Both the position numbers and the translations under genes were made by a program. The notes beneath the pieces were generated by a model. The model did not search any database. It was not told the DNA's origin and saw only the letters and a list, made by a program, of their open reading frames with translations. A stretch of 64,000 nt of DNA from an uncultured Planctomycetales bacterium (GTDB taxonomy: Bacteria; Planctomycetota; Planctomycetia; Isosphaerales; Isosphaeraceae), in contig CAIYJE010000044.1 in the NCBI GenBank assembly GCA_903926465.1, positions 1 to 64,000 of the forward strand, read 5' to 3'. The stretch's first letter is position 1, and every line of letters starts with the position of its first letter. Positions 11,448 through 30,858 of the stretch are shown one piece after another.

Positions 11448-11452
11448 GTGCG

Positions 11453-12193
11453 ATGAGCAACAAGACAAATGAGACGATTCAGGTGCCCTGTATCGAATGC
11501 GGAAACAATTACCGGCATCATCAAGTACTTTTTGAATTCAAGAAGACCATCTGTGATCCGGATGATTGCTGGGAGGGGCAAACCGTCCACCAAATTGTTC
11601 AGTGCAATGGCTGTGAGTCTGTAAAGTATAGAGAGTACGACGTCAGCATAGATAACACGGATGAGGAAGGTACCCTTTTACCTTTTAATATAAGTGTATA
11701 CCCGAGTGCTATCGCAACCCCACCTACACGGGCACCATTAGACTTTGGTAATTCCTATGGAACGAGCTCAACCGTACCAGCGCCTGTGGTAAAAATGTAT
11801 CGTGAAACTATATATGCATTGAATTCTAATGCAGTGACCCTGGCCGGTGGTGGTCTTCGAGCGACTGTTGAAGCAGTTTGTCTCGCGCAAGGACTTATAA
11901 ACGGAAACCTCCAAAACAAAATAGATGCGTTGGTTTCTCAAAAACTACTAACTCCCGCGCAAGCAGATTTATTACACGAAGAACGTTATTTAGGAAATGC
12001 GGCGTTGCACGAACTGGCTACACCGGCCAGCCAAGACATCGAGGATGGGTTGCAAATCGTTGAGGGCTTGCTCAATACGATTTATGTTCTACCCGTAAAA
12101 GCAAAGCGCTTACGTGATAGACGTGAAGGGAATAACAAGAAAAAGAAAGTTGCAAAAACCTCCTCTGCGAAACGTAAGACAAAGAAGAGTTAA
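11453..12193 (+). CDS. Zinc-ribbon plus DUF4145 protein inside BREX
   Basis: A 246-residue protein not in the standard BREX set, lying between brxC (5-base gap) and pglX (3-base gap). Cys13, Cys16, Cys51 and Cys54 form a likely zinc ribbon. Residues about 118-215 (ETIYALNSNAVTLAGGGLRA, later LLHEERYLGNAALHELATP) match the DUF4145 domain, which occurs in restriction and other defence proteins with an unknown, perhaps RNA- or nucleotide-related, role. The Lys-rich tail is basic. Parts of the gene are AT-rich (22 G+C in the 60 bases at 11641-11700), suggesting separate acquisition. I start it at the ATG at 11453, eight bases after GGAG. Confidence 0.8.
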   Translation: MSNKTNETIQVPCIECGNNYRHHQVLFEFKKTICDPDDCWEGQTVHQIVQCNGCESVKYREYDVSIDNTDEEGTLLPFNISVYPSAIATPPTRAPLDFGNSYGTSSTVPAPVVKMYRETIYALNSNAVTLAGGGLRATVEAVCLAQGLINGNLQNKIDALVSQKLLTPAQADLLHEERYLGNAALHELATPASQDIEDGLQIVEGLLNTIYVLPVKAKRLRDRREGNNKKKKVAKTSSAKRKTKKS

Positions 12194-15100: not shown

Positions 15101-16942
15101 TCTTATTGGGTTAGCGATCGAGTTCGATCTGTTTTCGAACAGTTGGAATGTCTGGAGTCGAAAGGTCGAGCAGTTAGGCAGGGCTTAATTACAGGGGATG
15201 ATTTTAGATTCATTCGATGCTGGTGGGAAGTGTCGCCGGAAAATACTCTCAGTGCTTTGGATGCGCCATCTTGGCATGGCAAACAGCGAGCATTTCAGGA
15301 TTACTGTCGTAGAGCAACATTCGAGAGAAGGGGCTGGGTTCCGTTCGCGAAGGGTGGAGAATATAGTCCTTTCTACTCTGATTTGCATCTAGTAGTGAAT
15401 TGGTCTAGGGATGGAGCCGAGATTCGAAACATCACGGATGATATTACAGGTAAAAAAGCTTCACGGCCGCAGAACACGGATTTTTATTTTCGTTCAGGTC
15501 TAACTTGGCCACGAAGAACTACTAGCGGAATAAGCATTCGTCCTTTACAGGCAGGCGCAATTTTTTCGGATAAAGGCCCAACTGCATTTACTGGAAATGA
15601 TCTTGCGTTCCTCGGACTCATGCAGTCGCTACCATTTGCTGGATTAGCTTCTCTTAAACTTGCAGCTGCGGATGCAGCAGCTCGTTCGTATGAAGTTGGA
15701 CTAATTCAGGGTATGCCCGTTCCCAAATCTATAGAAAAGCTTGAACATCTAGGTATCGAGGCAATACGAGCAAAGAGATTTGGGAGCATAAATGACGAAA
15801 CGAATCATTACTTCGTGACTGCCTCGCTCTGCCGCCATAGATCAATGTCAGTGGCTGATGCGGTCAGCGAATATGAAGCCGGGCGACTGGAGGCAGAAGA
15901 AATAATCAACAAATGTCAGTTGAATTTGAATCAGATCGCATTCGCGCTATATGGAATCGAGGGTGATGATCGCTTATCATTGCAGCGAAGTGCCGCCGAA
16001 ATAAAAACAGGCGACGATATTGTCGACTCGAATGAAAGTGAGGATAGATCTTCTATTGCCTTGCCCCAGTCCATTCGCCACGCTCAAGAACTCATCTCAT
16101 ACATGGTTGGATGCGTCATGGGGCGATGGGATATTCGTTTTACGACCGGTGAAAAAGATTGCACTTCCCTGCCTGGTCCGTTTGAGCCTTTACCGGTACG
16201 CTCACCAGGAATGCTTCATGTTGGAGTGGAGACGTCACTTGATAAATCATTCAAATCTTACCCTCTTGAGACCGCGATCTCAGGTCTGCTTCCCGATGAC
16301 CCTGATCATCTTAAGGATTTAACACTCCGTATTCGAGATGCGCTCGAGTTTGTTTGGAATGACCGGACTGCAGTCGTAGAGAAAGAATTGTCTGAGATTC
16401 TTGGTGTCGACAATCTAAGAGAGTATTTTCGGAAGCCTGGTCCTGGCGGCTTTTGGGATTGTCATATCAAGAGGTACTCGAAGAGTAGACGCAAAGCCCC
16501 TATTTACTGGCTGCTTCAATCGTCCAAGAAGAACTACGCTCTCTGGCTGTACTATCATCGCCTGGACAAAGACATGCTGTTCAAGGCGCTGGTGAACTAT
16601 GTGGAGCCGAAGATTCGCCTGGAAGAAGAGAAGCTCAAAGCGCTTCTGTCACAGGCACAGTCAGCTGGCAATAGTGGCAAGGAATCGAAACGCCTCGCCA
16701 AGGAGGCGGAGAAGCAGGAAGACTTCCTTTCAGAACTGCGAGATTTTGAAGACAAGCTTCGGCGAGCGGCGAACCTGCACCTTGATCCCGACCTGAACGA
16801 CGGGGTGGTCCTGAACATCGCACCGCTCTGGGAGCTGGTCCCCTGGAAAGAAGCCAAGAAATACTGGGACGAACTGATGGAAGGCCAGTACGAATGGTCG
16901 TCGATCGGGAAGCAACTGCGTGAGAAGGGATTGGTGAAATGA
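12197..16942 (+). CDS. pglX: BREX adenine-specific DNA methyltransferase PglX
   Basis: A 1581-residue N6-adenine methyltransferase that marks host DNA in BREX, longer than the roughly 1200 residues common in type 1. The SAM-binding motif DPACGSG is at residues 448-454 and the catalytic NPPF at 818-821; about 360 residues between them is a large insertion. Residues from about 820 to 1450 are encoded by clearly AT-richer DNA (20 G+C in 15001-15060, against 36 in 12421-12480), which is where the target-recognition domain lies. A charged coiled-coil end with KLRRAANLHLDPDLNDGVVL and APLWELVPW closes the protein, as in other PglX proteins. Its stop overlaps the next start by four bases. Confidence 0.95.
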   Translation: MNQDLRNKLRNVVTQCRRLLEESISQELEGKYNIFARKDQVTADPGAKMSHLSEEEQASRKDILDHFAHIKARGFKPKEALDQLVREIAFTHLNRLCAYKMMEAREVYVGGQKFREAVSRGINSNGVKFYLAEHPEDERLFNTGQQDVAYRHYLDWLGGQLSDEIGVLFSPTDPANRLYPKQKTLDEVLDLLNGGGIKAEETELREQWPQIWAQDETIGWVYQYFTPKELRDQARKESQAPRNSYELAFRNQFFTPRYVVEFLTDNTLGRIWYEMRKGETRLKDQCRYMVRRPTEVFLDSDPEDKEYKPQFWEAVTRGDFTALPETATWDEINHFALLIDGYEESERHGLGDCGEFANARLAAFRETGEWQGNALELWCCLFFEQRRWRHFGYSPEGDDFKAILALYQALRAALNETTDSLGQDELLKRPVFIPVRPQKDPRELKILDPACGSGHFLLYCFDLLLTIYEDAWEQGLIDRSEFGVRTDPSVVPSSVRLDPKARPRSSYSQKLLDPEKAYVVVTDEADFGDGVSAHQPYIIDEGIRFRVPFRHRIPLRQFDYAQAIQSGWFSTEVGERFVRESGCFRFEGIPIRTEDEAHRAFLQEVPRLILAHNLHGIDIDLRASQIAALALWLRCQRAYQEMGLKKDRPRITRSNFVCAEPMPGEEQMLKEFVSQLEPKVLGQVVEVVFDKMKLAGEAGSLLKIEEEIRDTLDDAKKQFVRDSTRAKDKQGRTFLFTQAEMRRVKDGPEQLSLFDLSDITDEQFFEQAEAKVIEALRAYAEKAQGGQRLQKRLFAEDAVRGFAFIDVCQKRYDVVLMNPPFGEASKISKSLIDRVYPRTKNDIYAAFVELGIARLLLGGILGAITSRTGFFLSSFQKWREEVLLYDAKPTVFGDLGHGVLDTAMVETAFYCLLKRSATVTTKFLRLLEAEDKKKYLEKAVKAINQFKQMSYIFEVDPISFRKIAGSPFSYWVSDRVRSVFEQLECLESKGRAVRQGLITGDDFRFIRCWWEVSPENTLSALDAPSWHGKQRAFQDYCRRATFERRGWVPFAKGGEYSPFYSDLHLVVNWSRDGAEIRNITDDITGKKASRPQNTDFYFRSGLTWPRRTTSGISIRPLQAGAIFSDKGPTAFTGNDLAFLGLMQSLPFAGLASLKLAAADAAARSYEVGLIQGMPVPKSIEKLEHLGIEAIRAKRFGSINDETNHYFVTASLCRHRSMSVADAVSEYEAGRLEAEEIINKCQLNLNQIAFALYGIEGDDRLSLQRSAAEIKTGDDIVDSNESEDRSSIALPQSIRHAQELISYMVGCVMGRWDIRFTTGEKDCTSLPGPFEPLPVRSPGMLHVGVETSLDKSFKSYPLETAISGLLPDDPDHLKDLTLRIRDALEFVWNDRTAVVEKELSEILGVDNLREYFRKPGPGGFWDCHIKRYSKSRRKAPIYWLLQSSKKNYALWLYYHRLDKDMLFKALVNYVEPKIRLEEEKLKALLSQAQSAGNSGKESKRLAKEAEKQEDFLSELRDFEDKLRRAANLHLDPDLNDGVVLNIAPLWELVPWKEAKKYWDELMEGQYEWSSIGKQLREKGLVK

Positions 16943-18588
16943 GCCCCCCTCTTCCGACGCGTGAAAGCCTGACCGTGGAATTCAAGAGCGATCGCGATCG
17001 CCTGCCCGATAGGGACTTGATTAACGCGGTGGCCTGCCTGGCCAATACTGAGGGAGGCGAGCTGTATATCGGTGTCGAAAACGATGGCCGGGTGACTGGC
17101 TTGCACCCGGCGCACCGCCATTTCTCCGGCGTGGTGGCCCTGATCGCCAACCGGACCGTGCCCCCACTGAGTGTACGAGCCGAGGTACTGACGGTGGAGG
17201 GGCTGTTCGTCGGTCGATTGACAATCCCCAAGTCGCGGCAGGTTGTGGCCACTTCGGAAGGGATGTTGCTGCGGCGGCGGTTGAAGATTGACGGTACACC
17301 CGAGTGCGGTCCGCTATTCCCGCACGAAATTGCCCAGCGGCAGTCTGATCTGGGCTTGCTAGATTATTCGGCCTTACCCGTACCGGCGGCAACGCTCGAC
17401 GAATTCGACCCACTGGAACGGGAGCGGCTGCGGCAATGTGTTGAACGTTACAACGGCGACCGCACGCTGATCGGCCTGGCAGACGAGGAACTGGTGGGCG
17501 CTCTGGGGCTGGTGCGGCGTGACGAAGGGCGGTTGGTGCCCACCGTGGCGGGGCTGCTCATTCTGGGCCGGGAAACGGCGGTACGCGAACTTTTGCCCGC
17601 GCATGAAGTGGCCTTTCAGGTGCTTGAGGGAACGGAAGTCCGGTTCAATGAATTCCGAAAGATGCCTCTACTGAAGATCTTTGAATGGGTCGACCAGCAA
17701 TTTCGAGCGCGGCTGGTGGAGCAGGAACTCCGGGCCGGATTATTTCGGGTGCCGGTGCCCAACTATGAGCCGAGCGCCTTTCGTGAGGCATTTGTAAATG
17801 CGCTGGTGCACCGGGATTACACGCGGCTGGGGGCCGTTCAGGTTCGTTGGGAAACGGACGGGCTGGTGATCAGCAATCCAGGGGGGTTCGTTGAGGGGGT
17901 CACGCTGGAGAACCTGCTGGTGGTGGAGCCAAGGCCGCGAAACCCGCTACTGGCCGACGCCCTTAAACGGATCGGCCTGGCGGAGCGCACCGGGCGTGGG
18001 ATCGACCTCATTTACGAAGGGCTGCTTCGTTACGGACGCCCTGCGCCCAATTACGGGCGGAGCACCGGAAGTTCGGTGGTCGTGATCCTGCCGGGTGGCG
18101 AAGCCGACCTGGGCACCTTGCAAACCATTATCGAGGAAGAGAATCGGACGCACCATTCGCTTCCGGTTGATTCGCTGATCGCGTTGAGCTTGCTGCGAAG
18201 TGAACGCCGGGTGGATACGAGCCGGCTGGCTCGGAGCATTCAGAAAGACGAAGCAGCCGCCCGCCAGGTCATTGAACGGCTGGTCGAGGCGGGTCTGGCT
18301 GAAGCCCACGGCGTGAAGAAGGGACGCACGTACACCCTGGGCCGGGCGGTGTACCAGCGGATGGGTCAACCAGCCGACTACGTGCGGCAGGCCGGCTTCG
18401 ATTCAATTCAACAGGAACAGATGGTGCTTCAGTTCGTGCGCGTGCACGGCCGAATTGCGCGTAAAGACGCGTCTACACTGTGCCGAATTAGCAGCCTCCA
18501 GGCTAGCCATCTTTTACGTAAACTTTCTTCTAGCAGCAAGTTGCGAACCGAAGGGAGCGGCCGGGGAACGTATTACGTGCTGCCGTGA
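16939..18588 (+). CDS. AlbA_2/Schlafen-like ATP-binding protein
   Basis: A 549-residue accessory protein overlapping pglX by ATGA. Residues 10-110 (LTVEFKSDRD, NTEGGELYIGVENDGRVTGL) are the AlbA_2 domain shared with Schlafen proteins. Residues about 265-385 (FREAFVNALVHRDY, then ISNPGGFVEGVTLENL and GLAERTGRGIDLIYE) are the ATP-binding HATPase_c_4 region typical of this family. The last 150 residues look like winged helices. Such proteins act as ATP-dependent nucleic-acid factors or regulators; related genes are seen in some BREX loci but not in the core set. The role here could be regulation of the operon or DNA sensing. No helicase motifs were found, despite common RecG-like annotation. Confidence 0.8.
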   Translation: MSPPLPTRESLTVEFKSDRDRLPDRDLINAVACLANTEGGELYIGVENDGRVTGLHPAHRHFSGVVALIANRTVPPLSVRAEVLTVEGLFVGRLTIPKSRQVVATSEGMLLRRRLKIDGTPECGPLFPHEIAQRQSDLGLLDYSALPVPAATLDEFDPLERERLRQCVERYNGDRTLIGLADEELVGALGLVRRDEGRLVPTVAGLLILGRETAVRELLPAHEVAFQVLEGTEVRFNEFRKMPLLKIFEWVDQQFRARLVEQELRAGLFRVPVPNYEPSAFREAFVNALVHRDYTRLGAVQVRWETDGLVISNPGGFVEGVTLENLLVVEPRPRNPLLADALKRIGLAERTGRGIDLIYEGLLRYGRPAPNYGRSTGSSVVVILPGGEADLGTLQTIIEEENRTHHSLPVDSLIALSLLRSERRVDTSRLARSIQKDEAAARQVIERLVEAGLAEAHGVKKGRTYTLGRAVYQRMGQPADYVRQAGFDSIQQEQMVLQFVRVHGRIARKDASTLCRISSLQASHLLRKLSSSSKLRTEGSGRGTYYVLP

Positions 18589-18626: not shown

Positions 18627-18679
18627 ATGCGCAAAAAATTGCGGTCTGCTTGTATCCGGTTTGAAAGGGAGAGTTATTG

Positions 18680-21277
18680 ATGCCCGTTATCACCGAACAT
18701 CTCGTGTACCTCATCGCCAGACAGGTCGACGACTATGGCCTGGTCGTCTGGTACGACCCTGAGCACGCGTATGGCCCGGTCGCGGCTTCGCTCGCGATTC
18801 CCCGGACCACGGTTGCACTTTACGATGGTAGCTTCTTGAAGCTGCGCAAAGAGGTTGATCTTTTGCTCAATGACGGGCTGCCGCCCCGGCTGGTGGTGTA
18901 CGTTCCCCTGGAACGCGAGAAGACCGACGCGGCGCTGATTGAGCTAGACTGCGCGGGGGTGGTGATGCAGCCACGCCAGCAACCGCCCGCCTGTAATACC
19001 AGGCTTTCGGTTGTGGCTCGCCATGCCCTTAGCCCGCTTCTGGGCGAAGAGCAGCTTGCCGAGATTGAACGGCAGGTGGAGGCCGGCAAGCTCACGCTGG
19101 CGGACCTGAATTCCCTGGCCGAGAAGGGGAAGGATCTTTCCACGGGCGTGCTCGCCCTCATCTTTGGCACGGCCAACCCGCAGGAAGTGGCGCTTGCTTT
19201 CCTGCACGGTGATCAGTTTGACGAAGAGGTCAACAAGAAGACAGCGGCCAAGGAACTGCGGCATCTGCTGCAAGTGAGCTTTGACATTGAGCTAGAGGCC
19301 CATAGCAGCCTGGCCGATTGGCGGGTGAAGCTGGGCCGGCATGTTCTGGTGACAGACTTGGTCAATTCGCTCGCTGACCAGGTGCCACCGTCGCTGGGTT
19401 CGGTTGGCGTGGCTCACAGTTCAGGAGGTGTCGATGCCTGCGTCCGGCTTGCACGGACGTGGCGTGATAGCCGCCAACATCGTGAGAGTTACGTGGCCCT
19501 GGCCAGCAAAACCGAGCAAGACTTTGCACTGGGCCAGCTTGATCTGCCTGTGAAGCCGTTGACCGGCAACGAGACGTTCCGGTGCGTCGAGAATCGGCTG
19601 CTGACCCATGTGGAAAAGGAGCTGCTGGAGAAGCCAACCACCGAGCTGTTGCAACTGGCCGGCCGGCGGCTTTCCTGCTTCTGGGCCGATGTTGAGCCCA
19701 AGATTCAGGCGCGCTGGGCGCTGATCTTGGCGGCTGCTGAGGTATTGCGTGCGGCCAACCGGGTGGGTCAGGAGCTCAAGAAAGCCCCAACCTCGGTTCC
19801 TGCGCTCGTGAGGGCGTACGCCGACGATGACTACCAGCCCTGGTGCCTGCTCGACACCCATCACCGGCACATGGAGAGCCGCAAGTACAACTTCGAGTTT
19901 GCCTCTGGCAACGACCATCAGGGGCTGGAGAAACTGATCAACCGGGCCGAGCAGCGATACACAGAGGTTGGGTCGGCACTGGCCAGGCACTTTATCACCC
20001 AGTTTTCCCAGGCCAAGCACCCGATCAAGGGGCTCTTGCGGCAGCGAGACTGCTTTGAGAAGCAGGTGAAGCCGCTGCTGGGGCAAGGTAAGGTGGCGTA
20101 CGTCTGGGTAGATGCCCTGCGTTATGAGATGGCGAGAGAGCTGTGCCGCCTGCTTGCCGACGACTTCACACTGGAACTCAAGCCGGCCATTGGGACCATG
20201 CCCACAATCACCGAGATTGGCATGGCGGCGTTGCTGCCCAGGGCGCATGAGGATGCCAGGGTTGTGTCGGTGGGTGGGGGTAAACTGGCGCTGGAGATTG
20301 GCGGCAAGGTGATCAAGGATCGGAAGGACCGGGTGGCCTTTCTCAAGGAACATGCGGGGGTGCCGGTTTTTGATGCCAAGCTAGATGACTTGCTGCCGAA
20401 GCCGGGTAAGAAGGTGAAGGATGGCATCCAGGAGGCCCAGTTGATCTTGATTACCTCGCAGGAGATCGACGAGCTGGGCGAGGCGGACAACATGTCTCAG
20501 GCGCGGTTGCAGATTGATGGGGTGTTAAGCCATTTGCGCCGGGGGATGCGGGTGCTGGCCGATCATGGCGTGAAGACGATTGTGCTGGTGGCGGACCACG
20601 GGCACCTGTTTGCCGATGAGATGGGCGACGACATGAAGATTGAGGCGCCCGGCGGCAAGGTGGAAGACCTGCATCGCCGGGTGTGGGTGGGTGTGGGCGG
20701 GAACACAGAGCCTTCGTATCTCAGGATCGCGCTGGATGAGCTGGGGGTTGAGAGTGAGTTCGACCTGGCGACCCCCTGGACGTTTGCGGTTTTCAAGTCG
20801 AAGGGGGGCGGCCGTGCGTACTTCCACGGTGGGCTTTCGCCACAGGAACTGATTGTGCCTGTGGTGGTACTGAAGGCGGTTGATAAGCCGTCGACCTCAT
20901 CGACGGGCATCCACTGGACGTTGACCCCGGGCACGCCGAAGCTGACCACGCGGTTCTTCTCGGTACAGGTCGCGGGGAGCCAGAGCGTATCCAGCCTGTT
21001 CGGGTTTGAACCGCCCAAGGTGCGTATTGAACTGAGGGCGAACAAGAAGTGCGTTTCTCTGCCGGTGAGCGCTTCTTACGGGTTCGAAGATGCCACGGGC
21101 GAGGTGACCTTGAAGATCTCGGAGAGCAATCCCACGCGGATCGAAACGAATACGGTCACCCTGATGGTGAAAGTGGAGGAGATCGGCCAGAAGACCGTGA
21201 GCATCTCGTTGCTCGACGCCAGTACCGGGACTGTTCTTGCGAGCCTCGACAAGATTGAGGTTACCGTTTCAATGTAA
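18680..21277 (+). CDS. pglZ: BREX PglZ, alkaline-phosphatase superfamily
   Basis: An 865-residue PglZ protein starting at the ATG at 18680 after AAAGGGAGAG. Its catalytic domain shows YVWVDALRYEMARELC (Asp478) and VLVADHGHLFADEMGDD (Asp639, His640, His642), the metal-binding motifs of the alkaline phosphatase/sulfatase fold. A C-terminal beta-rich region follows. PglZ is essential in BREX and forms complexes with PglX and BrxB, though the substrate is not known. The start (LVYLIARQVDDYGLVVWYDP) is the usual N-terminal domain. The length suits the variant called PglZ type B rather than type A, but that needs a profile search. Confidence 0.92.
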   Translation: MPVITEHLVYLIARQVDDYGLVVWYDPEHAYGPVAASLAIPRTTVALYDGSFLKLRKEVDLLLNDGLPPRLVVYVPLEREKTDAALIELDCAGVVMQPRQQPPACNTRLSVVARHALSPLLGEEQLAEIERQVEAGKLTLADLNSLAEKGKDLSTGVLALIFGTANPQEVALAFLHGDQFDEEVNKKTAAKELRHLLQVSFDIELEAHSSLADWRVKLGRHVLVTDLVNSLADQVPPSLGSVGVAHSSGGVDACVRLARTWRDSRQHRESYVALASKTEQDFALGQLDLPVKPLTGNETFRCVENRLLTHVEKELLEKPTTELLQLAGRRLSCFWADVEPKIQARWALILAAAEVLRAANRVGQELKKAPTSVPALVRAYADDDYQPWCLLDTHHRHMESRKYNFEFASGNDHQGLEKLINRAEQRYTEVGSALARHFITQFSQAKHPIKGLLRQRDCFEKQVKPLLGQGKVAYVWVDALRYEMARELCRLLADDFTLELKPAIGTMPTITEIGMAALLPRAHEDARVVSVGGGKLALEIGGKVIKDRKDRVAFLKEHAGVPVFDAKLDDLLPKPGKKVKDGIQEAQLILITSQEIDELGEADNMSQARLQIDGVLSHLRRGMRVLADHGVKTIVLVADHGHLFADEMGDDMKIEAPGGKVEDLHRRVWVGVGGNTEPSYLRIALDELGVESEFDLATPWTFAVFKSKGGGRAYFHGGLSPQELIVPVVVLKAVDKPSTSSTGIHWTLTPGTPKLTTRFFSVQVAGSQSVSSLFGFEPPKVRIELRANKKCVSLPVSASYGFEDATGEVTLKISESNPTRIETNTVTLMVKVEEIGQKTVSISLLDASTGTVLASLDKIEVTVSM

Positions 21278-21324: not shown

Positions 21325-22479
21325 ATGGGTGCAGGCAAATTTCCAGAATTGATCGTCCAGGAATGGGTCAGCAAGGACCCCTCCTGGGAAGCGCTGAAGG
21401 AAAGTGGCCAGATCGAGCCACCCACACCGGCGCCTGTCTTCCGGTATTGCCCGCTGTGTTACGAGTGCTTTCTTGCCCATCCTGGTTCTGATTCGGAACT
21501 TACCAACCATATTGCCCGGGTGCATGGTAAGGAGCATATCTATCTCACCGTGGACGGGGTGGTGGTCAGGGATTCCTGCTGGTTGTCCAAACTGATTCGG
21601 AAATGCGAACTGGTGCTGCTGAACGTTCCTGAACTGGAAGTTCAGATCCAGGCTGGCGGGAAAGAGATCGCCAGATTCAGGACCAGCAAAACCTGCTCAC
21701 TCACGCGTTTACTGTCTCCCACCAAATCGTTCGAGGGGAAGATCACGATCAGCGTGATGGGTGGGCCGCGGAAACGGGAATACACGATCTACCGGGGAAA
21801 GCAGCCTGAATTCCGCTCCGTGGAACTCGACAAGGCCATTCAGGAGATTCCGAACTCTCTGATGGCGAAGACTTCGCTTGATCTCGCCAACTTTTACGAG
21901 GTTCACCAGCAGCTTGGTACGAATGAACTGGAGCAGCGGTACCTGAAAGGCATGGTGGAATACTATCACAGCCTGCTGCTGGAGAAACAGGGTCACACTG
22001 TAGGCGTACGTGACAGAATTGAAGCGGCCATGGAGTTACTACTCCCTTTTCGCACCAAGTCCGCAAATGCCGCGCGCTGGGCTCTTGCTCTTCGTATGAA
22101 CTGCTTTAGCTCTTTGAAGAGTTGTCCGGAGGGAACATACTTCGCACAGGCACGGAGCTTCTTTTATGACGCGGCCGAGAAGCTTACTGAGACGCCGGCC
22201 GTGGAATCCAGCATTCTGGTCAATCCGCTCACAGAGGAGCTTCTTTCGGCACTACGTGCCTATTACGGTGGAGACTCCATGGAAGTGCTAGCCTACACCT
22301 CCGGAATTTTCCGTCGAGCCAAACAGCTTGATGCCAATGACGAGATCAAATTGACGCTTCTGGAAGCCCGGACCCACAGGCGAGACGGCAACCGAGAGCG
22401 TGCGCGAGAGGTTTATTCCAGGCTGGTTCATCATCACCTTTTTGGCCCTGAGGCTGATAAGTTCGTCAGGCATAGCTGA
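21325..22479 (+). CDS. C2H2 zinc-finger protein in the BREX operon
   Basis: A 384-residue protein of unknown function, 47 bases after pglZ. Cys42-x2-Cys45-x16-His62-x4-His67 (from YCPLC to HIARVH) is a good C2H2 zinc finger, which could bind nucleic acid or protein. A beta-rich middle part (residues about 75-160) is followed by an all-helical C-terminal half with paired-helix spacing like TPR repeats, a common chaperone-partner fold. It opens the cassette that goes on with the coiled-coil and Hsp70 genes. No family was recognised. Confidence 0.75.
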   Translation: MGAGKFPELIVQEWVSKDPSWEALKESGQIEPPTPAPVFRYCPLCYECFLAHPGSDSELTNHIARVHGKEHIYLTVDGVVVRDSCWLSKLIRKCELVLLNVPELEVQIQAGGKEIARFRTSKTCSLTRLLSPTKSFEGKITISVMGGPRKREYTIYRGKQPEFRSVELDKAIQEIPNSLMAKTSLDLANFYEVHQQLGTNELEQRYLKGMVEYYHSLLLEKQGHTVGVRDRIEAAMELLLPFRTKSANAARWALALRMNCFSSLKSCPEGTYFAQARSFFYDAAEKLTETPAVESSILVNPLTEELLSALRAYYGGDSMEVLAYTSGIFRRAKQLDANDEIKLTLLEARTHRRDGNRERAREVYSRLVHHHLFGPEADKFVRHS

Positions 22480-22538
22480 TATCAACCTATAAACATGCCA
22501 GACCCCGCAAGAACAAACGAGAGTGGAGAGCGGTTTCG

Positions 22539-23849
22539 ATGGACGAAGAGACGTTACTTACGAACAACGAGTCAGAGCCCTTGGCGGCTTGGCAGGAGGA
22601 TCTTCAACCTGGTGTCCAGGCTGAAAGTCCGAGCCAGACGGAGGTGCTTGACCCAGCGGCTGTCCCTGCGGCCGACCAGCCGACTGAGGGCCGGGTGATG
22701 AGGCCTGCTGAGGTTCTAACGCAGCCGCTGTTAGACCAGGGTTCTAAGCCAGATGTCCAGGCATCGGCCGGTAAAGAGAGCTCTTTCACGAGAAAAAGTA
22801 AGGCCAGGCCAGAAGGTAAGCCTACGGCCGAGGAGTTTTTGGAGAATGCCCAGAAGATCGTCAAAGAGGCTCCCAGGAAGTCGGCCCTCGCCTCTCTACT
22901 CAAGCTACTGAAAGCCGGGTATCAACCGCCCCACAACGCAGACCATCTGGAGCAGCTTGAAAACCTGGTTGCAGGCTGGGGGCAGGAATCGAAGCTGGCG
23001 TTGCAGCTCACTGTGCTGTCTGCGGCCGCGCAAAAGACCACGCCCGTTCTGAGGGGGCTTCGTGATCGGTTGCAGCGCAGAGCCTTCCAGGCGGTATCTT
23101 ATCCCAGGCTCGTTGAGGCGGAGCCCAAGCCAGATGCCAACGCTCGGCTGAAAGAGCTTCTTCAGTGGGTTCGACAGGGTGGAAAAACTGAGGAAGTGAA
23201 CCCGAGCAAGCTTGATCCGAACTGGGCCAGGCTGGCTGTCGTTTGCCTGATGGAGGAGCCTGCGCCCATTCGCGAACATGCCCTCTATACGCTTCTGGAG
23301 ACCTGTGTCGAACTCTCAGGGAAGCGTGAGATCGAGCTTATACTGGAAGATGAGGCGGCTCAGTTTATGACCGAGGTTGGGACTGTTCTGGGGGCCGACA
23401 CGCTCACTCCAGCCAAACTACGGTCAGGTCTGCGTTATGCCGCGCCTGCCAGGCTCCGGACGAGGAAGGTTCACCGCGACCTGCTGAATCAAAAGACGCT
23501 CACGACCGAGGCGGCGGAGAAGGCCCAGGGCCTGGCGGCGGAAGTGGACCGTTTACAGAGCGAACTCCTGGCCGCACGAGAAGAAGCCAAACTGCTCTCC
23601 AACGCCGCAGTGGCCAAGCAGAGGCAGCTTGAGGAAGCGGAAAGCCAGCGTGACAACCTTGAGCATCACTTCGAGCAACAGCTTCACCTGAAACTCGAAA
23701 GGCAGGCAAACCAGATCAAGGCCGATCTGGGGCATGAGATCCAGGAAGCGCAACTCGCACTTGATAGTCCCTCGCCTAGCACCCGAATGGCGCTGGAGCG
23801 ATTGAGACGAATGGACCAAGCCCTTTCCAAACTTGTGAAGGACGAGTGA
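22539..23849 (+). CDS. Coiled-coil protein linked to Hsp70
   Basis: A 436-residue protein with an acidic, disordered N-terminal 90 residues, a helical middle and a long heptad-like coiled coil at about 318-430 (EVDRLQSELLAAREEAKLL onward). Its TGA stop overlaps the ATG of the Hsp70 gene by one base, which is strong evidence that the two are made in fixed ratio and work together. A long N-terminal or C-terminal coiled coil next to an Hsp70 recalls nucleotide-exchange or co-chaperone roles (as GrpE or J-type helpers), but no GrpE beta-domain or HPD motif is visible, so the role is open. Confidence 0.75.
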   Translation: MDEETLLTNNESEPLAAWQEDLQPGVQAESPSQTEVLDPAAVPAADQPTEGRVMRPAEVLTQPLLDQGSKPDVQASAGKESSFTRKSKARPEGKPTAEEFLENAQKIVKEAPRKSALASLLKLLKAGYQPPHNADHLEQLENLVAGWGQESKLALQLTVLSAAAQKTTPVLRGLRDRLQRRAFQAVSYPRLVEAEPKPDANARLKELLQWVRQGGKTEEVNPSKLDPNWARLAVVCLMEEPAPIREHALYTLLETCVELSGKREIELILEDEAAQFMTEVGTVLGADTLTPAKLRSGLRYAAPARLRTRKVHRDLLNQKTLTTEAAEKAQGLAAEVDRLQSELLAAREEAKLLSNAAVAKQRQLEEAESQRDNLEHHFEQQLHLKLERQANQIKADLGHEIQEAQLALDSPSPSTRMALERLRRMDQALSKLVKDE

Positions 23850-25351
23850 TGAAAGCGAAGAATCCACCTGCGAAGCCGGACGGTATCGGGATTGATTTTG
23901 GCACCACGAATTCGGTGATTGCCAAGGCCATTCGCAGTGGCCAGGGCGTTACCACCGGTGCCCTCAGCGAACCACATCCATCGGTAGTCTGGTATCAGCC
24001 CAACGAAAGTCCCAAGGTTGGCAAGATCGCCAAGGACAACCTGCTGGGTTTTTCAGAGGCGGCCGGGAATTACTTCGTGAGCTCGGTCAAGCAAACCTTC
24101 GGCAAGGAAAACCGGTTCAGCATCTTCGGTAGGAAGGTCACCAGTACCGATGTTGCCTCCGAGATTTTCACGCATCTGAAGCACAACGCAAAGATCACCA
24201 ATAATCTTGATGTCACGGAAGCCGTTGTCACGATCCCGATCGATTTCGATGGCCGCGCACGGCAGGAGCTGCGAAAAGCCGCTGATCTTGCCGGTATCTA
24301 CATCAAGACCTTTATCCACGAGCCATTCGCCGCGATTGTTGGTTACTGCTACGGGCAGAAAGATCAGCGTACGCTGCTAGATCGTGAGGGTGAGAATATT
24401 CTGGTTTTTGACTGGGGTGGTGGCACCCTGGATGTGACCCTGGGTCGGATCGAGGGCAATAGCCTGGTTGAACTGGGAACGAAAGGGCTTGCGGGTCGGT
24501 CTGGCGATTACTTCGACGGTCGACTTTCAAACGAGGTCAAAAGCCAGTTCATCAAACGGCAGAAGATCTCGGCCGACGAGTTGAAATTGACTGCAAGCAC
24601 CAAGGACCGGCTGCGGGCAGAATGCGAAAAGTGCAAGATTAGCCTTTCCGAACTGACCGAGCATGAGGTTATGGTTGCCCAGTTCTATCGGAATGGGCTC
24701 CATGCGATCAACCTAGAGGAACTTGTTGAGCGCAGTACCTTTGAGGGCTTGATCCGAAATGATGTGCAGGAAGCGATTGGCCTGATTGATAGCGTGCTGG
24801 ATCAGGCGGGACTGAAAGATAGCGATGTGGACCTGGTGCTTCTGATTGGTGGTACATCCCGCATCCCATTAGTGCGTGGTGAGATGTATAACCGGTTCGG
24901 CACGAAGATGGTCCACGTTAAGAATGCTGATACGATCATCGCGGAAGGAGCGGCTGCGGTGGATGCGCTCGGGCTCTACCCAGCACTGGCCCGCACCGTG
25001 TGTGTTGAATTGTCTGACGAATCTCATTACGAAATCTTCAAGGCCGGCGATCTTGCAAAGCCAGACGTCTGCTACAAGGAGGTTCTGTTCTTTTGTACGG
25101 ATAACCGTGATGGCCAGGCCAGGCTGGTGGTCAAGGAGAAGCTGGGCAGAAGCACGACTCGTTTCGAAACCAAAGACGTTTTGTCGATTCCAGTCAGTGC
25201 GGCTTTGCCCAAGCCTTTTAACCACGAGCGAGTGAGGGCTAGCTTTGCTCTGGATGACGACCTGATCTTGCGCGTGTCTGCCAGTGGTGCAATTTTCCCC
25301 GCGGGGGCTCAGACGGAAATTTACGACCTCTGTTTCTCGCTCAAAGCCTGA
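23849..25351 (+). CDS. Hsp70/DnaK-family ATPase in the BREX operon
   Basis: A 500-residue actin/Hsp70-fold ATPase. All three nucleotide motifs are present: phosphate-1 IDFGTTNSV (Asp16), phosphate-2 FDWGGGTLDVTLG (Asp188) and the adenosine motif LLIGGTSRIPLV (residues 331-342). The nucleotide-binding domain spans about residues 10-375; only about 110 residues of beta-rich sequence follow, so the helical lid of DnaK (about 640 residues) and its EEVD-like tail are missing. Such shortened Hsp70s usually serve a dedicated partner. I start at the ATG at 23849, overlapping the coiled-coil stop; a GTG three bases earlier is possible. This is not a housekeeping dnaK: no grpE or dnaJ is nearby. Hsp70 is not part of the canonical BREX set. 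Confidence 0.93.
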   Translation: MKAKNPPAKPDGIGIDFGTTNSVIAKAIRSGQGVTTGALSEPHPSVVWYQPNESPKVGKIAKDNLLGFSEAAGNYFVSSVKQTFGKENRFSIFGRKVTSTDVASEIFTHLKHNAKITNNLDVTEAVVTIPIDFDGRARQELRKAADLAGIYIKTFIHEPFAAIVGYCYGQKDQRTLLDREGENILVFDWGGGTLDVTLGRIEGNSLVELGTKGLAGRSGDYFDGRLSNEVKSQFIKRQKISADELKLTASTKDRLRAECEKCKISLSELTEHEVMVAQFYRNGLHAINLEELVERSTFEGLIRNDVQEAIGLIDSVLDQAGLKDSDVDLVLLIGGTSRIPLVRGEMYNRFGTKMVHVKNADTIIAEGAAAVDALGLYPALARTVCVELSDESHYEIFKAGDLAKPDVCYKEVLFFCTDNRDGQARLVVKEKLGRSTTRFETKDVLSIPVSAALPKPFNHERVRASFALDDDLILRVSASGAIFPAGAQTEIYDLCFSLKA

Positions 25352-25362
25352 GGAGGTGCCCA

Positions 25363-25587
25363 GTGAGCTCAAATCTCAAAGTTCGGTCCAACCTGATGAT
25401 TGACGACCAGGACCACAGGCCCGAACATCGTTATATTCCGGGTGATTACGTGCGTGAGATTAATCCCGGCTTGACCGACAGCCGTGTGATTGACAGGGAG
25501 TTATCCAGGCAGCAAATTGTTGAGCTTGAGCAGTACCTACGGTGCACCCGTTGCCGGAAGGCGTGTGCCGGAACCTGTGGACGCTGA
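25363..25587 (+). CDS. Small Cys4 protein in the BREX operon
   Basis: A 74-residue protein starting with GTG, 11 bases after the Hsp70 stop, with an AGGAGG ribosome site eight to nine bases upstream that supports the start. Its last 14 residues hold Cys61, Cys64, Cys68 and Cys72 (CTRCRKACAGTC), a likely small zinc or iron-sulfur site. The N-terminal part is charged, with RYIPGDYVREINPGL. No family was recognised; by position it is a likely partner of Hsp70 or BrxL. Confidence 0.7.
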   Translation: MSSNLKVRSNLMIDDQDHRPEHRYIPGDYVREINPGLTDSRVIDRELSRQQIVELEQYLRCTRCRKACAGTCGR

Positions 25588-25647
25588 GATCAAGAATTCA
25601 CCCCCCAACCGATTGAGGCCGATAGTGGCCAGGTAGTCGAATTGCTC

Positions 25648-27678
25648 ATGAGCGACGCATTGAATCAGAAAGCCTGTACGGTCTTCGCGGGGAAAGTCGT
25701 CCGTAAGGATCTGGTGCGTAAGGTCAAGGTTGGGGCCAATGTTCCGGTTTTCGTGCTGGAGTATCTGCTAGGTAAGTATTGCGCAACAGACGATCCATTG
25801 GCGATCGAGGCTGGCTTGAAAGTTGTTAACAATACACTGTCTTCCAATTTTGTTCGGTCGGACGAGGCGAACAAGGCCCAATCGTTGGCCAAAGACAAGG
25901 GAAAGCTCACGCTGATTGATAAGGTGCAGGTCCGGTACCTCTCAGACGATGACAAGCACTGGGCCGAACTCAAGAACTTTGGCCACAAGTTTGTTCACGT
26001 GCCTGAGCATTACCTGCGGAAGTATGACCGCCTGCTCATGGGCGGCATCTGGGCCCAGGTGGAACTGAAGCACCAGTACGATGAGGAAGCCAGTGGCAAG
26101 CGGAGCCCGTTCTGGATCGAGGAGCTGAAGCCGATCCAGCTCGCGAGTTTTGACCTCGATGAATACCGCCAATGCCGTACCCAGTTCACGTCTGAAGAAT
26201 GGGTCGACCTGCTCCTGAGAACCGTGGGTCTGGAGCCGGCCCACTTTACCCGCAGGCAGAAGCTGCATTACCTCGTCCGCCTGCTCCCGCTTGCCGAGAC
26301 CAATTACAACCTGATCGAACTGGGCCCACGCGAGACGGGGAAAAGCTATGGTTACCAGGAATTATCTCCCTACACCATTTTGCTGACCGGCCCGACCACG
26401 GTGGCCAATATGTTTGTGAACAATGCCACGGGGAAAATGGGATTGGTGGGAATTTGGGATGCCATTGGCTTTGATGAGGTGGCAGACCTCCAGAAGATGC
26501 CCAAGGAGGTGGTGACCACCCTGAAAACCTATTGTGAGTCTGGAACGTTTGCCCGTGGCAAAGACTCGCTTTCAGGAATGGCTTCAATCGCTATGTTCGG
26601 CAACACCAATCAGCCGGTTGAGGTCATGGTACGCTCATCGCACCTGTTCATGCCCTTGCCCAGTGTGATTCGCGAGGATATGGCGTTCTTGGACCGAATC
26701 CACTTTTACATCCCAGGCTGGGAGATGCCGAAGATGAAAGTGGATTTCTTCACCAACCATTACGGCTTTGTGGTGGATTACCTGGCCGAAGCGCTTCGTG
26801 AGTTGCGCAAGCACACATTTACCGAGGTCCTGGACCGCCATTTCTCCCTTGGTTCGCACCTCAAATCACGTGACGTCAAGGCGGTGAGGAAAACGATCTC
26901 GGGGTTGGTGAAGTTGATTTACCCGAATGGTGAGATCTCAAAAAGTGAGGTTGCCGAGCTGCTGGAGCTGGCGCTCGAAGGGCGGCGGAGGGTCAAGGAA
27001 CAGTTGAAGAAGATGGGTTCCTTTGAATTCCACCAGACCTCGTTCTCGCTGATTGACAATGAAACCCTCGAAGAGCGGTTCATTGGTGTGCCTGAGCAGG
27101 GCGGAAGGGACATGATTGCGCTTGACCCGCTGGCGCCGGGCTCGGTGTACACGTCATCGGTCGATGATCAGGGTAAGGTTGGCTTGTACCGGCTTGAGGT
27201 GGGCTGCTCTCCTGGTACGGGAAAACTAAAAATTGCCGGCGGCGTGGATGGACCAATGCGCGAATCGATCAACCGGGCGTTTGCTTACCTGATGGGCCAG
27301 AAGGTCAAAATGGGGATCGCCCAGCAGGTAGATACCACGGACTTTCATGTCGAGGCGATTGACCTTCTGAGCAACCATGTCCCCTGTGAGGCGGGTATCG
27401 CCCTGGTGGTCGCCATCTATTCCGCCATCAAACGGCAGCCATCCCTGGCTGGCCTGGTGATCCTGGGCGATCTGAGCATCCAGGGGAACATCAAGGCCAT
27501 GCGATCTCTGGCAGAGCCCTTGCAGGTGGCCATGGATAACGGGGCACGCAAAGCCCTGATCCCGCTGGAGAACAAGCGCAACTTCCTGGAGGTCTCTGGG
27601 GACATCGTGGAACGCGTGGACCCCGTGTTCTTCTCTGACCCGCTCACTGCGGCCATGAAGGGCCTGGGGATGACCTGA
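25648..27678 (+). CDS. brxL: BREX Lon-like AAA+ protein BrxL
   Basis: A 676-residue BrxL of the longer type (TIGR02653-like). The central AAA+ ATPase has Walker A GPRETGKSY (residues 226-234) and a Walker B-like WDAIGFDEV. The C-terminal Lon-like domain is present, but the position of the catalytic serine reads PCEAG (Cys580) and the catalytic lysine position reads LAEPL, so the Ser-Lys dyad is missing and peptidase activity is unlikely. Published BrxL work describes a DNA-binding AAA+ machine needed for phage exclusion and not for methylation. I start at the ATG at 25648; a TTG six bases earlier is the alternative. It is separated from pglZ by the four-gene Hsp70 cassette, which is unusual. 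Confidence 0.93.
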   Translation: MSDALNQKACTVFAGKVVRKDLVRKVKVGANVPVFVLEYLLGKYCATDDPLAIEAGLKVVNNTLSSNFVRSDEANKAQSLAKDKGKLTLIDKVQVRYLSDDDKHWAELKNFGHKFVHVPEHYLRKYDRLLMGGIWAQVELKHQYDEEASGKRSPFWIEELKPIQLASFDLDEYRQCRTQFTSEEWVDLLLRTVGLEPAHFTRRQKLHYLVRLLPLAETNYNLIELGPRETGKSYGYQELSPYTILLTGPTTVANMFVNNATGKMGLVGIWDAIGFDEVADLQKMPKEVVTTLKTYCESGTFARGKDSLSGMASIAMFGNTNQPVEVMVRSSHLFMPLPSVIREDMAFLDRIHFYIPGWEMPKMKVDFFTNHYGFVVDYLAEALRELRKHTFTEVLDRHFSLGSHLKSRDVKAVRKTISGLVKLIYPNGEISKSEVAELLELALEGRRRVKEQLKKMGSFEFHQTSFSLIDNETLEERFIGVPEQGGRDMIALDPLAPGSVYTSSVDDQGKVGLYRLEVGCSPGTGKLKIAGGVDGPMRESINRAFAYLMGQKVKMGIAQQVDTTDFHVEAIDLLSNHVPCEAGIALVVAIYSAIKRQPSLAGLVILGDLSIQGNIKAMRSLAEPLQVAMDNGARKALIPLENKRNFLEVSGDIVERVDPVFFSDPLTAAMKGLGMT

Positions 27679-27752: not shown

Positions 27753-29453
27753 ATGAAAACTCCAAAACACTCTCTCCGCAAGATCGTGTCGTTTCTGAAC
27801 AACCCCGACGAGGATGGCGGTTTTTGGTTGCCCAACATTCAGCGTCCATTTGTGTGGAATGAAGACCAGATCTGCCGGTTGTTCGATTCGATCATGCGCG
27901 AGTATCCAATCAGTACCTTACTGATCTGGAAGACCAAGAGCGCTATTCGTCGACGTAAGTTTATTGATAACTTCAGACATGAGATGCTGACTCACTTGAG
28001 CGAATTCTACGTGCCAGAGGATAACAAAAAGAAGTGTCTGGTTCTCGATGGACAGCAACGCCTTCAAAGTCTTTTCATCGGACTGAAGGGAAGTTATGAA
28101 GGGCGAGAATTATACCTTAACATCCTTAGTGGCGAGGTTGCCGCTCCGGATGACGTGAAGTATAAATTCGCCTTTCTAGATCCGCGAACTGCCACTTTCC
28201 CCTTTGTGAAGTTCAAAGAGATCGTTAACAGCACAAAAACGTTACGTGCTGTTGCGCAAGAGATTATTGATGATGCAGGACAAGAATTAAAAAAGCTCCA
28301 GCAGGACAAGATTTCTGATCACGTATCACTCGCATTCAAGACATTCAGGGATGACGATGGTATCTCCTATCAGGAGCTGGATAGTATCGAGAACGAAGAG
28401 CTCTACAGTGAAGATGACGTCGTCGAGATCTTTATTCGAGCCAACTCTGGCGGTACAAAACTCGGCAAATCGGATTTACTCTTCTCACTCTTGAGTTCCA
28501 GTTGGGAAGACGCAGATGAACGGATGGAGGCGCTACTCGCTCAGTTGAACCAACATGGCTTTTCTTTCCCACGTGACTTCGTACTCAAAACCTGTCTCAC
28601 TCTGCTTGACCAGGGAGCTCGTTACGAAGTCGATAAGTTCAGGAAATCTGGTATACGCGAAGAAATTGAGTCCAAGTGGGAAGAAATCTCCTGCGCGATT
28701 CGAGATGTGATTGATTTCGTTCGGGGCAAAACGTTCATTCGATGCGTCAAGGCAATGCCTTCGAATCTAGTACTGATTCCGCTCATTTACGTCCGGTACC
28801 ATTTCCCAGAATCATGGAAACAGGCGAAAGAGATCGACAGATTCCTACTGCGTTCGCTGCTTGCCGGTGCTTTCAGTGGCACACCAGACCAACTGATTGA
28901 CGATCTCGTTGCCAGAATCAATGCGATCAAAGGTTTCGATGTTAACGAGCTTTTCGATGTGATTCGGTCGAAGGGGCGTAGCCTGGAACTGACAGAGGAT
29001 CGTTTCTGGCAGATGGGCTATGGATCGGATACCGTCCATCTGCTTTTCAATCTGTGGTATCGAGGTTTTAACTACACGCCAGCATACGAGAACAACTTGC
29101 CGCAGGTCGATCATATATTCCCTCAGAGTGCCTTGCGAAAAATAAAGATACTGAATCCAAAGACGAACCGTAACGACCTGATGAAGTACAAAGAACCTGA
29201 CAGAAATCAGCTGGCAAATTGCATGCTACTCACGCAGGAAGAAAACGGAGCCGGAGGAAAGAGTGATACGCTTCCCGACCAGTGGTTCGAGGGGAAGGAC
29301 GAGGCTTATCTGGAGAACCATTTGATTCCGCAAGATCCAGCACTTTGGAAATTGGAACGGTTTGAGGACTTCATCGAGGCACGAAAGAAACTGATCCTTC
29401 GCCACTTCGCTTATCTCTTGACCACGACGAAGACGTCAGCGGATGGTTTGTGA
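27753..29453 (+). CDS. DUF262/DUF1524 GmrSD-like restriction protein
   Basis: A 566-residue protein with the plan of GmrSD/BrxU-type type IV restriction enzymes. The N-terminal DUF262 (ParB-like NTPase) part has LPNIQRPFVWNEDQI and the DGQQR motif at residues 99-103. The C-terminal part has VDHIFPQSAL (Asp453-His454), the beta-beta-alpha-metal nuclease core of DUF1524. GmrSD enzymes cut DNA with modified cytosines; BrxU is such an enzyme found with BREX and broadens protection to phages that evade it. It begins 74 bases after brxL and its DNA is AT-richer than that of the core genes. Target modification cannot be told from the sequence. Confidence 0.85.
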   Translation: MKTPKHSLRKIVSFLNNPDEDGGFWLPNIQRPFVWNEDQICRLFDSIMREYPISTLLIWKTKSAIRRRKFIDNFRHEMLTHLSEFYVPEDNKKKCLVLDGQQRLQSLFIGLKGSYEGRELYLNILSGEVAAPDDVKYKFAFLDPRTATFPFVKFKEIVNSTKTLRAVAQEIIDDAGQELKKLQQDKISDHVSLAFKTFRDDDGISYQELDSIENEELYSEDDVVEIFIRANSGGTKLGKSDLLFSLLSSSWEDADERMEALLAQLNQHGFSFPRDFVLKTCLTLLDQGARYEVDKFRKSGIREEIESKWEEISCAIRDVIDFVRGKTFIRCVKAMPSNLVLIPLIYVRYHFPESWKQAKEIDRFLLRSLLAGAFSGTPDQLIDDLVARINAIKGFDVNELFDVIRSKGRSLELTEDRFWQMGYGSDTVHLLFNLWYRGFNYTPAYENNLPQVDHIFPQSALRKIKILNPKTNRNDLMKYKEPDRNQLANCMLLTQEENGAGGKSDTLPDQWFEGKDEAYLENHLIPQDPALWKLERFEDFIEARKKLILRHFAYLLTTTKTSADGL

Positions 29454-29475: not shown

Positions 29476-30858
29476 ATGAACAGCAACCTCATTCAGAGCA
29501 TTTTCTCTCTTCCCGGCGGCAGAGGTCAGTATCACCTCACGCTCATCGAGTTCTCGCGGTGGCTCCAGGAGCAACCGAAGGCCGACCGAAGTGCTGCCCA
29601 GGAATGGTTCCAGTCGCGATTTGGTGCTGGTAAATCGGCGCCTTACTATTTCCCGGTAGTCCGAGACCTGGACGTCATTGAGTACGACCGCGGTAATGAC
29701 GGCCCAATTCGCCTCACGGAAGCTGGACGGACGTTGCTGAACTCAGAACCAGATCAACAACAAAAGCTGCTGGCCGATCGGTTCATGTCGACTTTCGTTG
29801 CCAACCGAGAGATCCTGGACGTTTACCGGCGATCGTCTTCAGCCGTCGGCTTGAACGAGCTGAGGAAAAAGCTCGAACCTGCATTTCCCACCTGGACGAC
29901 CGCGGCTCAGTTTGATTTTCGCCTTCGCTGGTTCGAATCTCTGGGTTTGCTCAGCTCGGCGGGTGGCACGAATTACCAGATCACGCCGTTGGGCCAGGAA
30001 TATGCCAAGCGGTATCCCGTAGACAGAACGTCACCAAAGCCAGATCTCGTTCCTGTATCCACGAAGACTCCATTGGATCTTCTGATCGACGAGTTGCGAG
30101 CAGCTTCGATCGACTCATCTCGTCCAGTACGGTTTGAGACTGCCCTCGCCCAGGCCTTTGAGGCGCTGGGTTTTACTGTGCGGCAACTCGGTGATTCGGG
30201 TGATACCGACGTTTTGGTCCAGGCACCGGCTGGTCATGATTCGTACGTGATTGTGGCTGATGCCAAAGCGAGGGCCTCTGGAAAAGTTGATCAACTTGAG
30301 GTTTTGCATCTCAAGGATCATCAATCTCTGAACAAAGCCGATTACGCGGTTGTGGTTGCTGGGAGCTTTGCGGGCGGGAAGGTAGCTTTTCATGCGGGTG
30401 AACAGGGGGTTACGCTCCTACCGCTCTCTGTTCTAGAAGCTTGGTTGAAGCTGCATGAGTCGTGGCCGCAGGATCTGATTGCCTATCGTTCGATTTTCGA
30501 GATCAAAGGCCTGGTTGAGAAACTGCCGCCGGAACTTCTCAGGCTCAATACCCATCGCAAACGCTGGGGAAAACTGCTGGCAGATATCATCGACCTGTTC
30601 AGCGAAACCTACGAGCACGGCCTGAGCGATCCGCTCTCGTCCCGAGATGTGTTCCGGATGCTGGTGACCCGGAGCCGAGGTGTACCTTACCCAGAGCCAG
30701 ACGTGATTAGCATCCTTGAGCTCTTGAGCCACCCGGTTGTGGGCGCTTTGTCAAGAAAACAGGAAGGCTACAGCCTGGTCATGTCTCGCGAGACCTTGGG
30801 CCTGCGGCTCCGCCGCCTGGCCGAGGAAGTGGAAAGCCTTGACCATGCTGGACGGTGA
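29476..30858 (+). CDS. Restriction endonuclease-like protein, PD-(D/E)xK
   Basis: The last gene of the operon, 22 bases after the DUF262 gene; 460 residues. The first 190 residues contain winged-helix-like segments (GQYHLTLIEFSRWL, and PIRLTEAGRTLL). The nuclease core spans about 215-300: FETALAQAFEALGF, then GDTDVLV with Asp245, then VADAK with Asp262 and Lys264, which fits the D-(x)n-(D/E)xK pattern. The family resembles stand-alone type II-like or Mrr-type endonucleases. With DNA methylated by PglX in the same operon, it could cut unmethylated DNA, or like Mrr it could cut foreign methylation. The gene meets the convergent DUF2079 gene 60 bases later. Confidence 0.78.
   Translation: MNSNLIQSIFSLPGGRGQYHLTLIEFSRWLQEQPKADRSAAQEWFQSRFGAGKSAPYYFPVVRDLDVIEYDRGNDGPIRLTEAGRTLLNSEPDQQQKLLADRFMSTFVANREILDVYRRSSSAVGLNELRKKLEPAFPTWTTAAQFDFRLRWFESLGLLSSAGGTNYQITPLGQEYAKRYPVDRTSPKPDLVPVSTKTPLDLLIDELRAASIDSSRPVRFETALAQAFEALGFTVRQLGDSGDTDVLVQAPAGHDSYVIVADAKARASGKVDQLEVLHLKDHQSLNKADYAVVVAGSFAGGKVAFHAGEQGVTLLPLSVLEAWLKLHESWPQDLIAYRSIFEIKGLVEKLPPELLRLNTHRKRWGKLLADIIDLFSETYEHGLSDPLSSRDVFRMLVTRSRGVPYPEPDVISILELLSHPVVGALSRKQEGYSLVMSRETLGLRLRRLAEEVESLDHAGR

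Follow-up and report, generated by a model that had tools for sequence, protein, structure and literature searches.

The window analysed here, a stretch of 64,000 nucleotides from contig CAIYJE010000044.1 of an uncultured Planctomycetales bacterium, carries a cassette of four genes between pglZ and brxL of a bacteriophage exclusion (BREX) operon. Together they form a divergent copy of a widespread, previously unnamed three-component Hsp70 module, which consists of a zinc-finger protein (ZnF), a coiled-coil protein (CC) and an Hsp70 and moves among the defence islands of bacteria. As it is usually found without BREX, it is best read as an autonomous, mobile module that BREX operons and other defence operons have repeatedly taken up, not as a chaperone dedicated to BREX. 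With modest confidence, we favour the explanation that a mobile three-component Hsp70 module was inserted among the accessory genes of a type 1 BREX operon, that the tail of its Hsp70 was split off, and that it would serve as an autonomous second layer. The genes of the cassette and the two genes enclosing it are listed below.

21325..22479, + strand: ZnF protein gene, 384 aa; N-terminal C2H2 finger, central beta domain and C-terminal TPR-like helical repeats
22539..23849, + strand: CC gene, 436 aa; position and architecture of the middle gene of the trio
23846..25351, + strand: Hsp70 gene; Pfam HSP70 E=3e-52, cassette-Hsp70 hidden Markov model (HMM) E=1e-113
25363..25587, + strand: 74-aa Cys4 gene; Hsp70 family HMM E=4e-7, own Shine-Dalgarno sequence
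18677..21277, + strand: pglZ, directly 5' of the cassette; PADLOC PglZ E=1e-99
25642..27678, + strand: brxL, directly 3' of the cassette; TIGR02653 1041 bits, Pfam BrxL_ATPase 6e-131

The first-pass annotation had described four co-directional, closely spaced genes at this place. All four open reading frames (ORFs) are present on the + strand, and the spacing is indeed close, the junctions in bases being pglZ-47-ZnF-59-CC-(-4, or -1 with an ATG start)-Hsp70-11-Cys4-54-brxL. The Hsp70 ORF comprises 501 aa when started at the GTG at 23846, with a 4-base overlap, or 500 aa when started, as in the first-pass annotation, at the ATG at 23849, with a 1-base overlap. Promoter and terminator scans within the cassette gave results at or below chance.

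Relatives were collected by a protein-guided search. In 294 planctomycete genomes besides the window's own there was no ZnF match at E<=1e-3 and no Hsp70 match at E<=1e-50, and plasmids searched with the window ZnF and CC proteins gave no match. Plasmid tblastn with the window Hsp70 returned one good relative, from Paenarthrobacter (32% identity over 97%, E=6e-54), which bears an extra C-terminal tail and is preceded directly 5' by a coiled-coil gene. On this plasmid (L003, 8457-10375) the ZnF gene is apparently interrupted by an IS3-family transposase. Single-protein scans of viral contigs found nothing and an alignment-guided scan was required; the alignment of the window and Paenarthrobacter Hsp70s led to two further Hsp70s in viral contigs. 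The resulting four-row Hsp70 alignment, searched against 84,980 species genomes, gave 228 relatives. Altogether 84 related loci, spread over many phyla, were analysed, the genome loci being the best-scoring 80 of the 228 matches, and their genes were called as simple longest ORFs.

The order ZnF-CC-Hsp70 on one strand recurs across the related loci, with frequent 4-base overlaps, and the family members measure about 370 aa (ZnF), 350-500 aa (CC) and 590-640 aa (Hsp70). Under strict size and adjacency criteria a contiguous same-strand trio was present in 70 loci including the window, its junctions mostly of 4 or a few bases. Looser clustering placed Hsp70 in 84 loci and ZnF in 76, and the coiled-coil proteins fell into two clusters (66 and 14). 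HMMs built from the 69 other loci, with the window left out, matched the window ZnF at E=3e-17, the Hsp70 at E=1e-113 and the Cys4 protein at E=4e-7. Pairwise distances within the trio correlated with rho of 0.82-0.88 over 69 loci, i.e., the three proteins co-evolve, as a unit. Searches of Pfam, PADLOC, NCBIfam and PHROGs with the window and family proteins returned only generic Hsp70 models and marginal coiled-coil, TPR or NTPase matches, those in NCBIfam being generic DnaK/HscA models below the curated cut-offs. A description of the trio was not found in the literature searched, chiefly open-access main texts, and an earlier description is therefore possible. The proposal of a conserved, Hsp70-centred cassette outside the known BREX sets was thus borne out, the gene order being kept elsewhere and no database or literature entry having been found. 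In actinobacterial loci only (L003, L051, L052, L053, L061, L063, L075, L078, L080, and L101), a coiled-coil gene of about 446 aa without Pfam match lies directly 3' of the Hsp70 gene; it is a possible lineage-specific fourth component of the trio in actinobacteria.

The Hsp70 of nearly every relative exceeds that of the window by about 90-140 aa and ends in a C-terminal Cys4 motif such as YYEPCxxCGRxSNDPLCxC. When the 74-aa protein was used as phmmer query, the fused-tail Hsp70s of L092, L096, and L099 were matched at about 8e-4. The small Cys4 protein had first been taken for a separate fourth gene product; judged by these similarities, it is the C-terminal zinc-tail of the Hsp70, split off in the window. 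Because of this identity, the four-gene cassette becomes a module of three components, not four, with a fissioned Hsp70. A sequencing error or frameshift was rejected as the likeliest origin of the 74-aa gene, since the gene has its own Shine-Dalgarno sequence GGAGG a few bases 5' of its GTG, and since the Hsp70 tail is likewise separated, in another frame, in L083 from Chloroflexia. In another locus, L087 (~10360-10800), the Hsp70 is parted from its Cys4 tail at the same place as in the window by a frameshift that follows a run of A. This one looks like an error or slippage, a real split having also been considered.

The Hsp70 of the window consists of a full nucleotide-binding domain and the beta part of the substrate-binding domain (SBD-beta), after which it ends; the helical lid is absent. 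Together with the Pfam match and the ATP-site residues checked, this agrees with the lidless, ATP-motif-bearing Hsp70 of the first-pass annotation. Equivalents of DnaK D8, T11, D194, T199, D201 and G341-G342 are kept in the window and in all 83 other members, and that of K70 in the window and in 82 of the 83. Since these residues are conserved, the cassette Hsp70 is probably an active ATPase. The canonical DVLLLD (VLLLDV-type) interdomain linker is absent and sequences such as LAKTVEL stand in its place, a replacement that predicts an altered coupling. Elsewhere in the window's genome there are a DnaK of its own and a second Hsp70, adjoined by a divergent GrpE-like gene.

In the ZnF family C42, C45, H62, and H67 are invariant, and a profile of 47 family members matches classical C2H2 fingers in PDB at E=5e-18, so the finger originally assigned to the 384-aa protein is well founded. 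An AlphaFold2 model of the ZnF protein (predicted local distance difference test, pLDDT, 80) shows a beta domain, with helical repeats towards the C-terminus. Its structural matches were non-significant, the top ones including the TPR co-chaperones FKBP51/52 and XAP2 (best E=0.065). The window CC has a low-complexity N-terminus and a C-terminal coiled coil, and the AlphaFold2 model of the family member from L045 (pLDDT 88) consists of a helical bundle followed by a helix of about 110 residues. A structure search with CC gave no match at E<=0.001, and GrpE was not among the matches shown. CC was also considered as a GrpE-like exchange factor, its C-terminal motif being alike by eye, and this was rejected, as hhalign against 16 GrpE proteins gave a probability of <1%.

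Of the 84 loci, about 15 have BREX genes in the flanking sequence that was retrieved; as these flanks span at most 10 kb and are often cut by contig ends, the counts of loci without BREX are upper limits. Thirteen loci are flanked by BREX genes (L028, L033, L038, L040, L045, L049, L054, L057, L058, L064, L067, L079, and L084). BREX-linked as well are L022, almost identical to L045 and with pglZ at the contig edge, and L094, where brxA, brxB and brxC are divergent. The identity of the BREX genes in L045 was confirmed by PADLOC and NCBIfam, its PglZ being of NCBIfam type B. In L028, L045, L049, and L079 the order is brxC-pglX-trio-pglZ-brxL, with a GmrSD-like gene before pglZ in L028. The slot of the cassette varies, since most BREX-embedded trios lie between pglX and pglZ, and the trio of the window between pglZ and brxL. 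The expectation that the cassette would accompany BREX in the same order elsewhere held for the order of the trio and for its presence in other BREX operons, while most loci turned out to be without BREX.

Among the neighbours outside the BREX set are type I restriction-modification genes, GmrSD-like genes, dynamin-MIT_C genes, DUF499/DUF1156 genes, SNF2 helicases and integrases, and in 20 of 83 loci there was no operonic neighbour. Directly 5' of the trio, in apparent operon with it, six loci (L032, L035, L040, L042, L047, and L050) carry a gene for a dynamin-family GTPase of 967-987 aa with C-terminal MIT_C; the GTPase gene is also near the trio in L033 and L038. The C-terminus of this dynamin-MIT_C protein also matches a PADLOC BrxL model.

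These contexts bear on the reading that the cassette is a BREX-dedicated chaperone, which would assemble, unload or reset complexes of PglZ, BrxL or BrxC. In its favour, the cassette is embedded between core genes both in the window and in roughly a dozen further BREX operons. The distribution on the Hsp70 tree does not: the BREX label requires 11 changes, 10 of which are forced by well-supported branches, and BREX linkage has thus been gained or lost repeatedly. Hsp70 distances in BREX loci follow those of PglZ weakly (correlation 0.40 with n=12, or 0.26 with n=10), in contrast to those of ZnF (0.85 in the same 10 loci). Furthermore, BREX without the module is common. Full-length BrxL (>590 bits) was found in 14 genomes of the planctomycete sample, 13 of them lacking the cassette, which was present in the window's genome only. 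Among 274 genomes from the class of L045's genome, eight had PglZ type B above cut-off, and in none of the seven besides L045's was ZnF found (E<=1e-5); a universal place of the cassette in PglZ-type-B BREX was accordingly rejected. We therefore do not regard the module as BREX-dedicated, given the share of loci with BREX, the 10-11 changes on the tree and the frequency of BREX without it. The first-pass annotation had suggested dedication to BREX and had named as evidence to the contrary co-occurrence in other genomes without BREX, along with BREX working equally well with or without the genes; such co-occurrence is what we see in most loci, together with at least 10 changes on the tree and poor tracking of PglZ. 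A BREX-dedicated chaperone thus seems unlikely to us; the reading is weaker yet retained because of a tight coupling to pglZ in one lineage.

This coupling is the first of several points that weigh against the favoured explanation. In L045 and L079 the stop of the Hsp70 gene and the start of pglZ overlap by 4 bases, which suggests a tighter integration into BREX in that lineage. Hsp70 distances in BREX loci correlate with those of BrxL at 0.66, as high as the value for PglZ and BrxL (0.51), and some co-inheritance of the module with BREX therefore remains. The window copy itself is remote. The window-independent CC family HMM reached the window CC at E=0.098 only, so that this protein, too divergent for its homology to be proven by sequence, is assigned to the family by position and architecture. 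The branch of the window Hsp70 on the tree is very long (3.9), which makes its place within the family uncertain. The genome loci are a non-random sample, and the short, often truncated flanks restrict what could be seen around them. Finally, since nuclease and toxin domains are missing from the trio, it has no obvious defence effect of its own, and its putative defence role is an inference from sequence and context.

Within the favoured explanation of a mobile three-component module, the following division of labour may be considered. The zinc finger and TPR-like repeats would act as adaptor or sensor for a signal consisting of nucleic acid or protein, and CC would be a scaffold or regulator of the Hsp70. 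In the course of an invasion the Hsp70, driven by ATP cycles, would bind a client protein or remodel it. As the trio has neither nuclease nor toxin domains, it would act directly on proteins or via a neighbouring effector. The module would be co-expressed with BREX as an autonomous second layer, outside the BREX machine. More tentatively, the trio may be a so far undescribed mobile module that acts autonomously against phages. Its ATPase-competent Hsp70, with a dedicated ZnF adaptor and a CC partner, would detect or remodel an invader protein, and the module would have been recruited repeatedly, as an exchangeable layer, by BREX and other restriction operons.

Another reading would have these as stress-response or housekeeping chaperone genes that hitchhike in defence islands by chance. 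An effector domain is absent from the trio, as this would have it, and the window's genome already holds its DnaK and the other Hsp70 with a GrpE-like gene. Yet the location beside restriction systems and integrases recurs, the distribution is patchy, the cassette has no DnaJ or GrpE partner, and dedicated partners co-evolve with the Hsp70. Chance hitchhiking is in our opinion highly improbable.

Phage biology knows chaperones as hosts or targets, and a few predicted conflict systems include them. No description of a mobile defence-island module built, like this one, around a conserved Hsp70 was found in the databases and literature searched; should the module work, it would be a case, open to testing, in which immunity has recruited a protein-folding machine. 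Owing to the conserved order, over 200 candidates are at hand for such tests. It also follows that genes within a BREX operon need not be parts of BREX, a point to bear in mind when BREX is reconstituted experimentally or annotated automatically.

In the host operon brxA, brxB, brxC, pglX, pglZ and brxL were each recognised by Pfam, PADLOC or NCBIfam, and its type 1 BREX system is thus complete. Its genes other than those listed above, and the genes that follow it, are these.

6384-7184, + strand: brxA
7150-7764, + strand: brxB
7782-11447, + strand: brxC
11411-12193, + strand: DUF4145 gene, overlapping brxC and just 5' of pglX; without PADLOC match
12197-16942, + strand: pglX
16939-18588, + strand: Schlafen/AlbA_2 and HATPase_c_4 gene between pglX and pglZ; 4-base overlap with pglX
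27753-29453, + strand: GmrSD-type (HEC-05) gene, directly 3' of brxL
29476-30858, + strand: Mrr/HindIII-like restriction endonuclease gene

Schlafen-family genes are a described BREX accessory, according to the 2026 BREX survey (PMC12839542). On the - strand, at 2701-4547, lies a pair resembling HEC-01A/B or PARIS-like systems, consisting of an OLD-type AAA ATPase (HEC-01A 2e-39, AriA 2e-29) and a 278-aa partner (HEC-01B 6e-5).

Four known systems were compared with the cassette. With DnaK/DnaJ/GrpE it shares an Hsp70 having a nucleotide-binding domain with ATP-site residues and SBD-beta, but its Hsp70 has a Cys4 tail instead of the lid, the DVLLLD linker is missing, and CC has no profile similarity to GrpE. 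Among GTPase-centred conflict systems, HSP70 occurs in a DO-GTPase/tubulin/HSP70 system and in GAP1-N2 systems with HSP70-GrpE (PMC7159879). The likeness consists in an Hsp70 within a prokaryotic conflict system and in the dynamin-family GTPase near the trio in 8 loci; unlike those systems, the cassette is without tubulin, GrpE and DnaJ, and the GTPase is present in few loci and absent from the window operon.

Type III CoCoNuT systems have the Hsp70-like CnuD proteins, and type III-B also the coiled-coil CnuA (PMC11090510). As in the trio, coiled-coil partners are encoded together with an Hsp70-like protein, and the superoperons concerned may contain BREX. By analogy, the Hsp70 and coiled-coil protein of the cassette could be directed at RNA or ribosomes, a function that has been proposed for CnuD and CnuA; we give little credence to this alternative. 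The trio Hsp70 has intact ATP motifs, whereas those of CoCoNuT have degenerate Walker A-like motifs (PMC11090510), CnuD being compared by its published description, and a C2H2-finger protein is a fixed part of the trio. No McrB GTPase, McrC or CnuH/UPF1-like helicase was recognised when the genes of the window operon were annotated. Among 24 operonic neighbours of related loci there was one AAA_5 match; whole flanks were not scanned for McrC.

The closest setting is type 1 BREX itself. In the main text of the 2026 survey (PMC12839542) the terms Hsp70, DnaK, chaperone and heat shock have zero occurrences. The cassette resembles a BREX component in its place between core genes of a complete type 1 operon, and differs from one in lying outside the core set and in being mostly found without BREX.

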